27,200 bases of DNA from a virus, in IMG/VR virus record IMGVR_UViG_3300032285_001583, positions 1-27,200 of that record. One strand, written 5' to 3'. The notes beneath the pieces were generated by a model. That model saw nothing but the letters and a program-made list of their open reading frames with translations. It had not been told where the DNA came from and did not search any database. This document shows, piece by piece, positions 416 to 5,957 of this stretch (the first letter of the stretch is position 1; every line of letters begins with the position of its first letter). A program made the translations under genes and the position numbers.

Positions 416-1918
416 ATGGCTTATAGCCGTCCAGGTGTTTACATTAGTGAGCGCCTTCTACCAGCACCTCTAGCAGCAGGTGTAACAGCAAATGCTGCTG
501 GCGCTGTTGTGGCACCTTTTGCACAAGGTCCAGAAGCAGTAACGCTTGTTTCATCTTGGTATGAATTTACTAAGACTTTTGGTGGCTACAACGCTGCCTA
601 CCCAGCAACCTTCCAGGTTGGCGCATACTTCTCAAACGGTGGTCGTGAACTCTACGTTAAGCGTGTTCTTCACTCTGACGCTGCTGCCGCAACTATCGAT
701 ATTGTGACATCAGGAGATGCAACTGTAGCAACAGTAACATCAAAGAATGCTGGCTCTGACGGAAACAACCTTCGTGTTGTTCTATCAGCAGGTTCAGTAT
801 CCAACACATACACACTAACTCTCTACAAGGAAGCAGGAGTCTCTGGCGTTATTGCTGACGATATCCTTCTTGAGCGTTACGAGAACGTAGTATTTGATGA
901 TGCAACATCATCAGACTATGCAGAGACTGTCATCAACTTGGTATCACCAAACATCACAATCTCTGCCAGCGCTGGTGGCACACCAGTAGCAGCAACATAC
1001 CCACTAGCAGGTGGCGCAAACGGTACAGCCGTTGCATCAACAGATTACACATCTTATAAGGGTCGTGGAACTTCAGTATTTGAAGATTTCACATCTCTTG
1101 ACCGTCCACTTGTATTCTTCCTTCCAGCAGTTCAAACTCTTGGCTCAGGCCAAGTTGCTGTATACGATGCAGCATCTTCATGGTCAGCAGCAAATAACGG
1201 TTTCGTTGTTGTAGAAACTGCAGCAGGAAAGACAGTAACAGAAGCGCTCTCATTCTCATCTTCTCTTACAGATACAAGCAACGCTGCTGTGTATTACCCA
1301 TACCTCTACATCTCTGACCCACTAGGTCGTGGTGCTGGTGCTCTTCGTAAGATTGGCCCATCAGGTTCTGTAGTTGGTCTTTACCTTTCAACAGATGCAA
1401 GCCGTGGAGTCTTCAAGTCTCCAGCAGGTATCGGAAGCACAATCCAAGGAGTCGTTGCTGTAGAAAAGACATTCACATCAACAGAACTTGATTCAATGAA
1501 TGCAAGCACTGCTCCAGTTAACCCAATCCGTCAGATTCCTGGCGCTGGTTTGGCTGTCATGGGTGCCCGTACACTTCTTCAAGATGGTACAGCGAACAAG
1601 TATGTCAACATGCGTCGTTCACTTATCTACATCCGCAAGAACCTCAAGAACCTCACAGAGTTTGCAATCTTTGAAAACAATGATGAGCGTCTATGGGCGC
1701 AATTGCGTAACAACATTACAGTGTTCCTTAACGAATACCGTAACCAAGGCGGACTCCGTGGTGCTAATCCTGCAGCAGCATTCTTTGTAAAGTGCGATGC
1801 AGAAAACAACACCGCTCAAGCAATCGCCAACGGTGAAGTCCACATCCAAGTTGGTGTGGCTCTCCAGTATCCAGCAGAGTTCATCGTCATCGACCTCAGC
1901 CAAAAGACGCTGAACTAA
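416..1918 (+). CDS. Contractile tail sheath protein
   Basis: 500 residues. It forms the contractile outer sheath around the tail tube. The N terminus (YSRPGVYISERLL) matches the usual 'PGVY..E' opening of phage sheath proteins, followed by the typical GP(E)AV..V.S..EF...FGG segment near residues 38-57 and GGRELYVKRV near 75-84. The C-terminal part (IRQIPGAGLAVMGARTL near 365-380, then the IYIRKNL and VHIQVGVALQYPAEFIVI segments) matches the conserved C-terminal domain that holds neighbouring sheath subunits together. The middle is rich in Ala/Thr/Ser and is probably the variable outer domain. A clear ribosome site (TAGGAG) precedes the ATG. The tube gene follows directly. Length is typical for the family. 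Confidence 0.95.
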   Translation: MAYSRPGVYISERLLPAPLAAGVTANAAGAVVAPFAQGPEAVTLVSSWYEFTKTFGGYNAAYPATFQVGAYFSNGGRELYVKRVLHSDAAAATIDIVTSGDATVATVTSKNAGSDGNNLRVVLSAGSVSNTYTLTLYKEAGVSGVIADDILLERYENVVFDDATSSDYAETVINLVSPNITISASAGGTPVAATYPLAGGANGTAVASTDYTSYKGRGTSVFEDFTSLDRPLVFFLPAVQTLGSGQVAVYDAASSWSAANNGFVVVETAAGKTVTEALSFSSSLTDTSNAAVYYPYLYISDPLGRGAGALRKIGPSGSVVGLYLSTDASRGVFKSPAGIGSTIQGVVAVEKTFTSTELDSMNASTAPVNPIRQIPGAGLAVMGARTLLQDGTANKYVNMRRSLIYIRKNLKNLTEFAIFENNDERLWAQLRNNITVFLNEYRNQGGLRGANPAAAFFVKCDAENNTAQAIANGEVHIQVGVALQYPAEFIVIDLSQKTLN

Positions 1919-1938: not shown

Positions 1939-2541
1939 ATGGCAACAGTTATCAACAATCGGTCAACACTTGTTACCGACCCAATCAGAAACTTCCGTTT
2001 CTTGGTTACATTTATTCCACAGGACAGCACAAATACAACACTGACTTCTCTTAAGACAGCGACATTTGGGTTTACTTCTGTATCGGGTATGGCGGTTACA
2101 ACTGACTCTATCCCTTACCGTGAAGGTGGATACAACACAACAGTTCACCAGATTCCTGGTCAAACTTCATTCACACCAATCACACTACAGCGTGGCGTGA
2201 TTCTTAATACTCACCAGAACTATGACTGGATGCGTAACCTTTTTGCAACTGTCAATGCAAATGGTACAACCCGTGCTAAGGACCAGAACTTCCGTTGCGA
2301 TTTGGAAATTCAAGTTCTATCACACCCAATTCCAAAGGCTGGACCAGAAGATACTTCTGCAGCACAGTCTGACCACACAGCAATGCGATTTCACGTGTAC
2401 AACTGCTGGCCAACATCAGTTGCTTACTCTGACCTCAACGCTGGTGACAATGCTTTGTTCGTAGAACAAATGACACTTGTCCACGAAGGCTTTGATGTTA
2501 ACTGGGCACCAAACCTAACAACAGACGCAGCAGACTTCTAA
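1939..2541 (+). CDS. Tail tube protein (gp19-like)
   Basis: 200 residues. It forms the inner tube through which DNA passes. The N-terminal DPIRNFRFLVTF segment, followed by a FGFTSVSGMAVTTDSIPYREGGYN region and QIPGQTSFTPITLQRGV near residues 70-90, is the characteristic pattern of T4 gp19-type tube proteins ('NF.V.I....F..VSGL..E...YREGG...'). Length fits the family. A GAAGGAGAA ribosome site lies before the ATG. Sheath upstream and tail-assembly chaperone downstream is the classical tail gene order, which supports the call. Confidence 0.93.
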   Translation: MATVINNRSTLVTDPIRNFRFLVTFIPQDSTNTTLTSLKTATFGFTSVSGMAVTTDSIPYREGGYNTTVHQIPGQTSFTPITLQRGVILNTHQNYDWMRNLFATVNANGTTRAKDQNFRCDLEIQVLSHPIPKAGPEDTSAAQSDHTAMRFHVYNCWPTSVAYSDLNAGDNALFVEQMTLVHEGFDVNWAPNLTTDAADF

Positions 2542-2553
2542 CAAAGGACTAAC

Positions 2554-3363
2554 ATGACGAACACAATTAGTGCAGCGGCTAATCCCGCATTGGCAAACAA
2601 CATGATTGAAAAGGCTATGGCTGAAAAGCCAGCGCCAACAGAAGTAAAAATTACTCCTCCTTCAAGTAACGTAGTGACGCTCCCTGGCGGGTACATAACA
2701 CCCGCTGGGGACGTCATTCGTGAAGCAGAAGTAAGAGAACTAACTGGAGCAGACGAGGAAGCAATTGCTCGTGCTTCAAACATTGGCAAAGCAATCTTGA
2801 CAATCCTTAACCGAGGAACAGTCAGAATTGGTGACCAGAAAGCAGACGAAAAGATTCTTGACCAGTTGCTCTCAGGAGACCGTGATGCCCTCATCATCGG
2901 AATCTTCAAAGCAACTTTTGGCAAAGAAACTGAGGTTAGTTCTTTTTGTGGTGGGTGTGAAGAGTTCAAGACTATCGGTCTTGATATCGACACAGACATT
3001 AAAACTAAAGTTTTAACAGACCCAATTAACGACCGAGTATTTACTGTAGAAGGAAAGAACAAAGTTTACACAGTTCAACTTCCTACAGGTTCAGCACAAA
3101 AAGAAATGATTAACAATGCTGATAAAAGTTCAGCAGAGTTAAACACCATCATGCTAGAGCACACAGTCATCAATATCGATGGCTCTCCAGTACTCAGCAA
3201 ATTGCAGGTACAAAACCTCGGTCTTACAGACCGTCGTAAAATCATTGATGAAATCAATGCACGAGTCTCAGGACCGCAGTTTGATGAGATTTCTGTTACC
3301 TGCCCAGACTGCGAAAGTGAGGTAAGAGTTCCAATTAATTTTGGAACCTTATTTCGACTCTAA
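2554..3363 (+). CDS. Tail assembly chaperone-like protein (short, unshifted form)
   Basis: 269 residues, AAAGGA ribosome site, lying between tube and tape measure genes, the standard place for the tail assembly chaperone. The N terminus is Ala/Pro-rich and probably disordered. A helical core (VRELTGADEEAIARASN near residues 60-76, then LDQLLSGDRDALIIGIFKAT near 102-121) resembles the phage tail-chaperone / T4 gp26-type domain. Two CxxC pairs (C132/C135 and C250/C253) suggest a zinc-ribbon fold interrupted by about 115 residues. The gene ends just before a second open frame that is entered by a +1 shift (separate entry), as seen in lambda G/GT-type genes. Family placement rests on position, helical core and frameshift architecture. 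Confidence 0.75.
   Translation: MTNTISAAANPALANNMIEKAMAEKPAPTEVKITPPSSNVVTLPGGYITPAGDVIREAEVRELTGADEEAIARASNIGKAILTILNRGTVRIGDQKADEKILDQLLSGDRDALIIGIFKATFGKETEVSSFCGGCEEFKTIGLDIDTDIKTKVLTDPINDRVFTVEGKNKVYTVQLPTGSAQKEMINNADKSSAELNTIMLEHTVINIDGSPVLSKLQVQNLGLTDRRKIIDEINARVSGPQFDEISVTCPDCESEVRVPINFGTLFRL
3352..3357 (+). other. Candidate +1 programmed ribosomal frameshift site (TTT CGA)
   Basis: In the zero frame the codons near the end of the chaperone gene read ACC TTA TTT CGA CTC TAA. A tRNA-Phe on TTT could slip one base forward onto TTC, which it reads equally well, while CGA, a codon that is slowly decoded in many bacteria, waits in the A site. The resulting frame (TTC GAC TCT AAG...) bypasses the TAA at 3361 and stays open to 3511. 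The two frames overlap only between 3326 and 3363, so any shift must occur there. A -2 slip would give the same frame. The exact slip codon is inferred. Confidence 0.6.
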
Positions 3364-3511
3364 GTCAACACCGTACACAACCTTGGTTGCGGAATGGTCA
3401 TCGTTAACAACATCCTTTAGAGGATGGACATTAACTGAGATAAAAGAATTGTCAGCAAGAGAAAGAAAGAACTGGCTAGAAATAGCCAAGTTTATTAGCC
3501 GAAAGGACTGA
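3356..3511 (+). CDS. Frameshift extension of the tail assembly chaperone (T-like domain)
   Basis: The +1 frame adds 51 residues to the chaperone (about 318 in total if the slip is at codon 267). The extension ends in FRGWTLTEIKELSARERKNW followed by LEIAKFI, a Trp-plus-'E(I/M)..(M/L)S.RER..W' pattern resembling the extensions of tail assembly chaperones in other phages. The frame has no ATG or GTG of its own before the conserved part and no ribosome site, so independent translation is unlikely. In lambda, P2 and many others the long form (GT) recruits the tape measure protein; the tape measure gene starts 5 bases downstream here. Without this reading, 3364-3515 would be an unexplained 150-base gap in an otherwise packed region. 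Confidence 0.75.
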   Translation, partial: DSKSTPYTTLVAEWSSLTTSFRGWTLTEIKELSARERKNWLEIAKFISRKD

Positions 3512-3515
3512 GCAT

Positions 3516-5957
3516 ATGAGCATGGTAGGCAAGATTCAGTCCTTGACTGGTGGTGTTGATAAACTTACAAAGAGCGCTGACGCACTCCTTGCTAAGTTAA
3601 CCAAAATTAATGAAGTTGCTGGAAGTAGCATCAACAGCGCTAACCAGGCTATCAACTCTGCTGGCGGTCAATTAAACCTTACTCAAGGAACTAAAGTTCG
3701 TCTTGGTTCGGACAATGCTCGTTTCCCAATGGCAGCACAGATGGCTGCTGGTGGAAACATGTTGTCGGGAAGTATGGGAGGCTTTTCGTTCCTGTCTCCT
3801 GGCACAATGATGGCAAATGCTGGTATTGGCATTGCAACTTCTGCTGTTAATGGTTTCTTAGGTTCTATTCCAGACCTTGGCACAACCATGCAAAATCAGT
3901 TGGGTTACTACCAGGCTGCTCTTAAGTCTCCAGGTATCAGCCGTATGGCTTTGGAACGTTCCACAATTCGTTCAATGAATGGCGGATTTTCTAGCACCCT
4001 TGGCGGCTCTATTACCGCTAGTACATTAGCCTCTGCAGGTTACTCCCCAGGAAGTGCAAACTACCGACAAGCAGTTGGTGAAGTTGGTAACGCTTACAAC
4101 ATGCTTGGAATGGATAACCAAACAGCAGCGGCTTCTGTTGCAAGCATGCATAGCGGAGCAATGGGTGCAAATCTTTTCCAATATGGAATTACTACTTACA
4201 ATCCTAAAACTGGAAAAGATAAAACTACAGGACAAATTGCTAGAGAACTCATGAATGTCATGGGTGCTGGCGGTGCAACAACGGAACAAGTTCGCCAGTC
4301 ATACCAAAAAGGTGCACTAGGTGCCAACCTTTCAACTATGGGATTTGACCAAGCAACACAGACAAGACTCTATCAAGCAATGATTGATATTTCTGCTGGC
4401 AAAAATCCTGACTCAACAAAAGCCAATAAAGGAAACGATAACACAGCGCTAACAGCCGCTGGTCGTATGAACGCTGCTCAAGCAAAGACAATGACTAGTG
4501 TTGAGACAAGTATGACAAAAGGTTTTGAACATGCTGCAGACGCTGTTGAAGCATTTAATAGAGCGTTAACTGGAACTCTAGGTCCCCTTACACAGTTGGC
4601 TGCTGAAGCACAGGGTTTTGTTGGTGGTGTTAAGGGAACTAATGCTGGACCTGCTTTAAAATCTGGAACAAGTATTCTTAAAAAATTAGGTGGAATGGGA
4701 TTGTTTGCTGGGGGAGTTGCACTTTCAGAATTTGGAGTTGGACTTCCAATGATGGCTGTTGGTGCGGGTCTGATGGCAACAGGTGGTGGCTCTAATGGTT
4801 TTGGTGCATCGTTTGGTCGTGGTGGAGGACGTGGTGGCTCTGCTCCCGTCAGTGCGGGAATCAGTGCGGCTTACGGGACGCAAGATACTTCAGGATTATG
4901 GGCCTCAACAAATAACACCCACACAGGAACGGATTACAACGTACCAGTAGGGACACCAGTAACAGCAGCAATGGATGGGGTTGTTTCCAGTACTGACTTA
5001 GGTCCTGATTACGGTATGGCTATTATGGTCGACCATCCTGGTGGCTACCAAACAATCTACGCTCATCTAAGTGAAAAAGACGCCAAAGTTGGTCAGACTG
5101 TTGCAAAGGGTCAACGTCTTGGTAAATCAGGTAATAGCGGTAACTCAACAGGTGCTCACTTGCATTTTGAAGTTCGCCATGGAAAAAACAATCCAGTAAA
5201 TCCTGACAGCATTCTTGGCGGAAGCAACAACGTTCTTAATCCATATTACGCATCAATTCTTCCTACACAAGGTGATGTCACTGGCTCTTCAGCATCAACG
5301 CCTACCTCTACCTCTAACGGTGGCGCAAACCTTAAAGCAACACCAGGAGGAGGGGCTGCTGACGGCAACGCAGTTGCAATGCAACAATGGTTGATGAGCC
5401 AAGGTCTTAGTGCAAATGGTGCAGCAGGAGTTGTATCTAATCTTCTTGCTGAATCTGGCCTTCGCACTGGCGCTGTTGGAGACCAAGGAAGTTCTTACGG
5501 GATTGCTCAATGGCATTTAGGACGCAAAGACAATCTCATGCGCTTTGCAAAGAGTGCGGGTCTAGACCCATCGTCTTTGGACGCACAGTCTCAGTTCCTT
5601 ATGAAAGAACTACGTGGCAAACAATACGGCAGTCTAATGTCAACCCTTAGCGACCCTAACGTTAGTGCCTATGATGCTACTGCTGCTTTTATGAAAACCT
5701 TTGAACGACCAGCCAACACTTCTGTTGAAGCAGTTACTGGGAGATATAACAGAGGACAATCTGCTTTAACCCCAAGCGGTGGTGGAGCATACGGAACTTC
5801 ATTTGGCGATACTTCTGCTGTAACAAACGGTAATAGTACTGTTAATGTCACATTAAAAATTGAACGTGCATCTGACGAAGAGGCGGAACGTTTTGCTCGC
5901 AAAGTTACAGACTACATCCAAAAAGGAACTGAAATCTCAATGATGGGACGTGCATAA
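3516..5957 (+). CDS. Tape measure protein with M23 peptidase and tail-lysozyme domains
   Basis: 813 residues. It sets tail length and probably opens the cell wall during infection. Residues 1-450 are the tape measure part: helical N terminus, Gly/Ala/Ser-rich body and a hydrophobic stretch near 385-425. A LytM/M23 metallopeptidase domain follows at about 450-565 with zinc ligands visible as H469/D473 (HTGTD) and the HLH motif (H548/H550), plus H517. A second wall-degrading domain at about 615-745 (GAAGVVSNLLAESGL, with E646 as candidate catalytic acid, then SSYGIAQWHLGRKDNL) matches the phage tail lysozyme family. The acidic/helical C terminus may contact the baseplate. The start uses GAAAGGA. 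Having both a peptidase and a glycosidase-type domain on a fairly short tape measure is notable. Confidence 0.92.
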   Translation: MSMVGKIQSLTGGVDKLTKSADALLAKLTKINEVAGSSINSANQAINSAGGQLNLTQGTKVRLGSDNARFPMAAQMAAGGNMLSGSMGGFSFLSPGTMMANAGIGIATSAVNGFLGSIPDLGTTMQNQLGYYQAALKSPGISRMALERSTIRSMNGGFSSTLGGSITASTLASAGYSPGSANYRQAVGEVGNAYNMLGMDNQTAAASVASMHSGAMGANLFQYGITTYNPKTGKDKTTGQIARELMNVMGAGGATTEQVRQSYQKGALGANLSTMGFDQATQTRLYQAMIDISAGKNPDSTKANKGNDNTALTAAGRMNAAQAKTMTSVETSMTKGFEHAADAVEAFNRALTGTLGPLTQLAAEAQGFVGGVKGTNAGPALKSGTSILKKLGGMGLFAGGVALSEFGVGLPMMAVGAGLMATGGGSNGFGASFGRGGGRGGSAPVSAGISAAYGTQDTSGLWASTNNTHTGTDYNVPVGTPVTAAMDGVVSSTDLGPDYGMAIMVDHPGGYQTIYAHLSEKDAKVGQTVAKGQRLGKSGNSGNSTGAHLHFEVRHGKNNPVNPDSILGGSNNVLNPYYASILPTQGDVTGSSASTPTSTSNGGANLKATPGGGAADGNAVAMQQWLMSQGLSANGAAGVVSNLLAESGLRTGAVGDQGSSYGIAQWHLGRKDNLMRFAKSAGLDPSSLDAQSQFLMKELRGKQYGSLMSTLSDPNVSAYDATAAFMKTFERPANTSVEAVTGRYNRGQSALTPSGGGAYGTSFGDTSAVTNGNSTVNVTLKIERASDEEAERFARKVTDYIQKGTEISMMGRA

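Follow-up and report, generated by a model that had tools for sequence, protein, structure and literature searches.

The window, by which we mean the whole stretch of 27,200 nucleotides that was analysed (positions 1 to 27,200 of the IMG/VR record IMGVR_UViG_3300032285_001583), carries several tail genes on its plus strand. A tail sheath protein (416..1918; PF17482, E 1e-9; phrog_23, E 6e-48) indicates that the phage has a contractile tail. It is followed by a tail tube protein of the T4 gp19 family (1939..2541; PF06841, E 5e-27), the upstream neighbour of the gene that we call G (2554..3363). Under standard decoding G has 269 aa, and its match to PF12322, its match to phrog_150 and an AlphaFold (AF2) model point to a tail assembly chaperone / T4 gp26-gp51 family protein. 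Further downstream on the same strand lies the tape measure protein (3516..5957), with matches to phrog tape measure families. At just 813 aa, this tape measure protein nevertheless holds both an M23 peptidase (PF01551) and a phage lysozyme domain (PF18013).

The zero-frame end of G reads GGA ACC TTA TTT (3352-3354) CGA CTC TAA (3361-3363), with one codon (CTC) between the presumed A-site codon and the stop. The +1 frame is free of stops from 3326 to 3511, where it ends with TGA (3509-3511), and it reads EFQLILEPYFDSKSTPYTTLVAEWSSLTTSFRGWTLTEIKELSARERKNWLEIAKFISRKD, a stretch that includes the motif pointed out in an earlier sequence-only reading of this DNA; the coordinates and the interpretation of the frames given there were correct. 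The predicted +1 shift site is UUU_C (3352..3355, plus strand), and after TTT the +1 frame would read DSKSTPYTTLVAEWSSLTTSFRGWTLTEIKELSARERKNWLEIAKFISRKD. The resulting extension, T (3356..3511, plus strand; 51 aa, DSKSTPYTTLVAEW...ISRKD), is predicted to be reachable by the shift only, as suggested by conservation of the frame, by selection and by hhalign homology. The predicted GT fusion would have 318 aa and the junction ...VPINFGTLF-DSKSTPY.... Only four bases separate the end of T from the tape measure ATG (3516), and the tape measure gene lies directly downstream.

As the same reading had proposed, T has no credible start of its own. The only common start codons in the +1 frame between 3326 and 3440 are TTG 3341 and TTG 3383, with Shine-Dalgarno pairing of −2.9 and −1.6 kcal/mol, respectively, versus −5.8 to −9.6 kcal/mol for six other genes of the window. 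The open +1 frame alone is unconvincing: it continues for 49 codons past the stop, and 45 to 94 such codons are present in some of the window's other genes. It is conservation that decides.

Relatives were collected by scans of IMG/VR and of bacterial genomes, giving 146 analysed loci. Two of these, from Burkholderiales (L176 and L177), belong to a different type; with the window included, the remaining 144 were condensed to 104 distinct G+T pairs in 34 clusters at 70% identity. They originate from IMG/VR contigs, cultured Streptomyces phages and actinobacterial chromosomes, with identities down to about 30%. The chromosomal sample is small, with 4 carriers among 396 Actinomycetota genomes in a PF12322 survey. 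One short contig (L163), binned as a Bacillota MAG, is a full G+T relative and may be viral.

The +1 frame of T was retained in 80/80 loci of the first scan and in all 104 distinct pairs, so that the T-like extension seen in the window is conserved at homologous loci. All 104 pairs have TTT as the shift codon, followed by C in 101 and by T in 3, and the zero-frame stop lies 0 to 3 codons past it. At two loci (L106 and L138), which read TTC TTT CGY, it is the TTT that aligns with the shift codon. Codon usage does not explain the preference: in the 13 representatives whose GC content is 61% or more, phenylalanine elsewhere in the gene is encoded by 3 TTT to 61 TTC, but 13/13 have TTT at the site. 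By comparison, the flanking codons are variable. The preceding codon is mostly a leucine codon (TTG, CTG and TTA, besides ATC, GTG and ACC; UUA in the window), and the A-site codon is CGN in 85/104 (CGA in the window), with CGA, CGC, CGT, CGG, CTC, CTG, CAA, CAG, CCG and the stop TAA all seen among the relatives.

T is protein-coding sequence in its own frame and under purifying selection. This is judged from the fact that synonymous changes exceed nonsynonymous ones in the frame of T alone: over 35 independent pairs we counted 449 synonymous versus 346 nonsynonymous codon differences in this frame, and 92/691 and 75/706 (synonymous/nonsynonymous) in the remaining two. The cultured Streptomyces phages GiJojo, BRock, pSt2308 and LuckySocke show the same layout, with CTG TTT CGC GAA CTC or CTG TTT CAG at the site and, in GiJojo, a predicted junction ...NVGILF-ANSD....

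Programmed +1 frameshifting at TTT in the tail assembly chaperone gene is the best reading of these data and, in our judgement, a highly probable one. It is favoured because TTT_Y is invariant, because T lacks a start of its own and because other relatives carry T in frame with G; the proposal of a tail assembly chaperone with a programmed +1 shift, made from the window alone, is supported on the same grounds. In the proposed mechanism, most ribosomes would read the zero frame, stop at TAA 3361 and produce G. In a minority, the P-site tRNA-Phe on UUU (3352-3354) would slip by +1 while the A site holds CGA (3355-3357), and would re-pair on UUC (3353-3355), its preferred codon. These ribosomes would then read through T to 3511 and produce the 318-residue GT.

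The common denominator of the sites is likely to be a fully paired move of tRNA-Phe (anticodon GAA) off UUU and onto UUC or UUU, because the A-site codon varies while UUU_Y stays constant. The sequence-only reading had singled out TTT CGA, with a slow CGA codon. The TTT and the following pyrimidine hold throughout the 104 pairs, but a slow CGA is unnecessary; as a general requirement it is ruled out by the varying A-site codon, and it could act as a modulator at most. In bacteria, UUU_Ynn has been described as a sequence at which +1 shifts occur with particular ease (PMC5009743), and for influenza PA-X a re-pairing of tRNA-Phe from UUU to UUC has been argued (PMC3498833). Thus, the mechanism may be called uncommon in the present setting, as had been expected, but the site itself belongs to a known shift-prone kind.

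Other genes of the window contain few such words. In-frame TTT followed by C accounts for 13 of their 193 TTT codons versus about 34 expected, and TTT_CGN was found 0 times in the 22 other genes checked versus about 7 expected. This scarcity is compatible with avoidance of a slippery word, although the expectation is based on first-base composition and dinucleotide effects may contribute. A conserved downstream RNA structure at the shift site is not supported, as folding was weak (mean z −0.66). Upstream Shine-Dalgarno-like pairing exceeded a synonymous-codon control in 29/35 relatives, but not in the window.

The assignment of the chaperone gene to the gp26/gp51 family is added here and was absent from the sequence-only reading. 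G (about 270 aa, with CxxC motifs) matches PF12322 T4_baseplate with 40.3 bits (cut-off 24.5) and phrog_150 'baseplate hub' with E 3e-9. A search of the PDB by sequence gave no significant match, and neither did a search of Pfam and NCBIfam with the phage T alone. The AF2 model of G has a mean pLDDT of 87.5, and its two best Foldseek matches in the PDB are the two chains of 2OB9, the HK97 tail assembly chaperone, with probabilities of 0.99 and 0.97, the next match being at 0.44; the match rests on the Foldseek probability, as the E values are 0.07 and 0.31 and the TM score by query length is 0.23. We infer that the locus encodes a G/GT pair of tail assembly chaperones within the T4 gp26/gp51 family, with functions assigned by analogy. 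As in lambda, G would form a coat on the tape measure protein of the adjoining gene, and the T part of GT would recruit tube subunits.

Homologues of T are also found in injection-system-like clusters. The phage T matched the T group of these clusters with 96% and E 5e-9 in hhalign, and column-shuffled controls reached at most 2%. This group is composed of the C-terminal part of single-frame proteins (L179 and L180) and of the −1-frame extension in Burkholderiales (L176 and L177). In L179 and L180, both actinobacterial, G and T form one continuous ORF with no recoding. In the Burkholderiales loci (L176:5700-5860 and L177:5690-5860), T lies in the −1 frame after GCT/GGT TTT TTT TTG, a long run of T's, so that a ribosomal −1 shift and polymerase slippage are both possible there. 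The Burkholderiales T resembles DUF6760 (PF20546), with E 7e-5 and 0.003, under the cut-off. The group to which this T of injection-system-like clusters belongs is homologous to the phage T; there, T is reached by −1 or in frame.

T4 itself has two PF12322 genes: gp26 has 208 aa and ends in ...KEFFELL, and gp51 has 249 aa and an extra C-terminal stretch. The profile alignment of full GT with full gp51 spans the junction and continues to the C-terminus (91%, E 9e-7). In hhalign, the gp51 tail matched T alone with only 36%, and T merged with the injection-system T with 65%, versus at most 0.4% for shuffled controls. Both T4 proteins share the Pfam family of G, the in-frame C-terminal tail of gp51 aligns with T, and gp26 is without this tail, as is G. 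The difference is that T4 uses two paralogous genes and no shift, whereas the window has one gene and a predicted shift. The comparison suggests that T4 reaches the same two kinds of protein via the paralogues 26 (G-like) and 51 (GT-like).

Distant single-gene cases, each type known from one or a few genomes, add further routes to T. A +1 arrangement at the aligned phenylalanine is present in Bacillus SP-15 (TTT_CAC), Streptococcus GXN1 (TTT_CGT), Microcystis Mel-JY01 (TTT_TGG), Flavobacterium immuto and others, with an ambiguous shift position in immuto and Listeria LIS04. A −1 arrangement after T_TTT_TTC or T_TTT_TTT is seen in XacN1, RAS14, Atu_ph07, PA5oct, PBECO4, GAP32, Munch, RaK2 and Phosso. 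These are jumbo phages (L190, L195, L196, L212-L217), and the −1 extension that T_TTT_TTY would give to their 'baseplate hub' gene has apparently gone unrecognised. The −1 arrangement also occurs in Aeromonas phiAS5 (L219:3180-3390), a member of the Straboviridae, T4's own family, and in Synechococcus DSL-LC02 (L218:3650-3870); in both, gp26 ends in GAT TTT TTC GCC TGA and a gp51-like T follows in the −1 frame. Finally, Pseudomonas Cygsa01 (L220:2809-2982) has a separate ATG-started T ORF that overlaps the stop of G (TAATG); its annotation, putative baseplate hub assembly catalyst, is also that of gp51. An independently started second gene among homologues had been named beforehand as evidence against a shift; an independent start of T is rejected for the group of the window, and Cygsa01 is one distant case.

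Taken together, the predicted routes to T among relatives are +1 (UUU_Y), −1 (U_UUU_UUY), in frame, a separate ORF and, in T4, a paralogue. A review describes G-T frameshifting as widely conserved 'except T4' (PMC5009743). In cyanophages, the first 200 residues of gp51 are missing and the C-terminal similarity is kept (PMC3037559), as would be expected of a T domain translated from a shifted frame. We consider it fairly probable that T4-type contractile tails and many contractile injection systems share one underlying G/GT recoding system, and that the route to GT was swapped repeatedly. T4 would then be no exception, with gp51 as its GT, and the 'truncated' cyanophage gp51 would be a T domain that receives its N-terminus from gp26 via −1.

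Several other explanations of the window have to be weighed. T could be a small gene of its own, not fused to G and expressed through re-initiation or a non-standard start, which we regard as improbable. Short ORFs with internal starts are annotated in GiJojo, BRock and LuckySocke, and the overlapping ATG of the distant Cygsa01 indicates that T can exist alone. However, any ATG around the junction is present in just 11/35 representatives, at scattered places and with no common start position; the TTGs of the window are without Shine-Dalgarno sequences; and the start annotated in GiJojo removes the first residues of T. Furthermore, G and T are joined in frame in L179, L180 and gp51, and an invariant TTT_Y would be purposeless for a separate gene. 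Entry into the same frame by a −2 ribosome move, which the sequence-only reading had allowed for, or by slippage of the RNA polymerase, is very improbable. A −2 move yields the same frame as +1 and is used by Mu (PMC3498833), but tRNA-Phe would have to face UAU, UGU, UCU or similar, because the preceding codon varies, and for polymerase slippage there are three T's only and no homopolymer. The predicted tryptic junction peptides differ, being VPINFGTLFDSK for +1 and VPINFGTLFFDSK, with an extra F, for −2.

A sequencing error or a decayed gene, in which an indel has split a single G-T frame, would fit with the in-frame GT forms of some relatives. This has a negligible probability, as it is refuted by the recurrence of the site across dozens of independent metagenomes and in the genomes of cultured phages; the zero-frame stop is moreover always 0-3 codons past TTT, and T is under purifying selection. 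Somewhat more room, though still unlikely, has to be left for real recoding with structural products, where G would belong to the baseplate hub as a subunit and GT would be present in the virion as a minor component. The family is named baseplate hub in phrog_150 and in GenBank records, and evidence for gp26 in the hub is cited in PMC3004832. In the same source, on the other hand, gp26 and gp51 appear among the hub assembly chaperones and gp51 is given as absent from the particle, and in the window the gene sits before the tape measure and has an HK97 chaperone as its best fold match. Conserved +1 recoding in a tail chaperone of the T4 gp26/gp51 family is strongly supported by the sequence comparisons, and the gene very probably yields two forms of a protein that assists tail building, via a one-base skip at UUU-C.

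Lambda-type G/GT genes (lambda gpG/gpGT, HK97 gp13/gp14, P2 E/E') share with our locus the position before the tape measure and a short, startless 3' extension in a shifted frame. They usually shift by −1 at a heptamer, whereas the predicted shift here is +1 at UUU_Y, and G is a PF12322 protein of ~270 aa. Tail chaperone frameshifts are also annotated in other contractile actinophages (ErnieJ, PMC5122674). The influenza A PA-X site UCC_UUU_CGU and the amalgavirus UUU_CGN (PMC3498833; PMC9559581) have the same P-site UUU, the same +1 direction and, as in most of our relatives, CGN in the A site. Unlike PA-X, the present site lies in a bacterial phage tail gene, with UUA/UUG/CUG and not UCC in the E site, and its A site may also hold CTC, CTG, CAA, CAG, CCG or UAA. 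The likeness is one of mechanism and not of descent. Among phages, +1 shifts in tail or capsid genes are known from Listeria phage PSA (cps/tsh), SPP1, the HSTV-2 chaperone and the SEA-PHAGES forward cases used by PRFect (PMC10885494). PSA differs in that its shift takes place on a proline codon followed by a pseudoknot or a stop (PMC5009743), and none of the +1 cases that we found described for these phages belongs to the gp26/gp51 family. A search of published papers, including a minority of the subscription literature, found no paper linking PF12322, gp26/gp51 or DUF6760 with frameshifting.

As tail +1 recoding is already known as a kind, the interest of these findings is greater for T4 and related tails than for the +1 site alone. 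Homologous genes appear to switch among +1, −1 and no recoding at one position, and the PF12322 family would supply bacterial UUU_Y +1 sites in large numbers, a natural counterpart to influenza PA-X. In deposited genomes of the group, GT and the T domain seem to be missed or mis-started. T is unannotated in pSt2308 (L083), and its annotation in GiJojo, BRock and LuckySocke begins only at a start codon within the extension (L081:4833-5030, L082:3842-4024 and L084:3881-4036, respectively).
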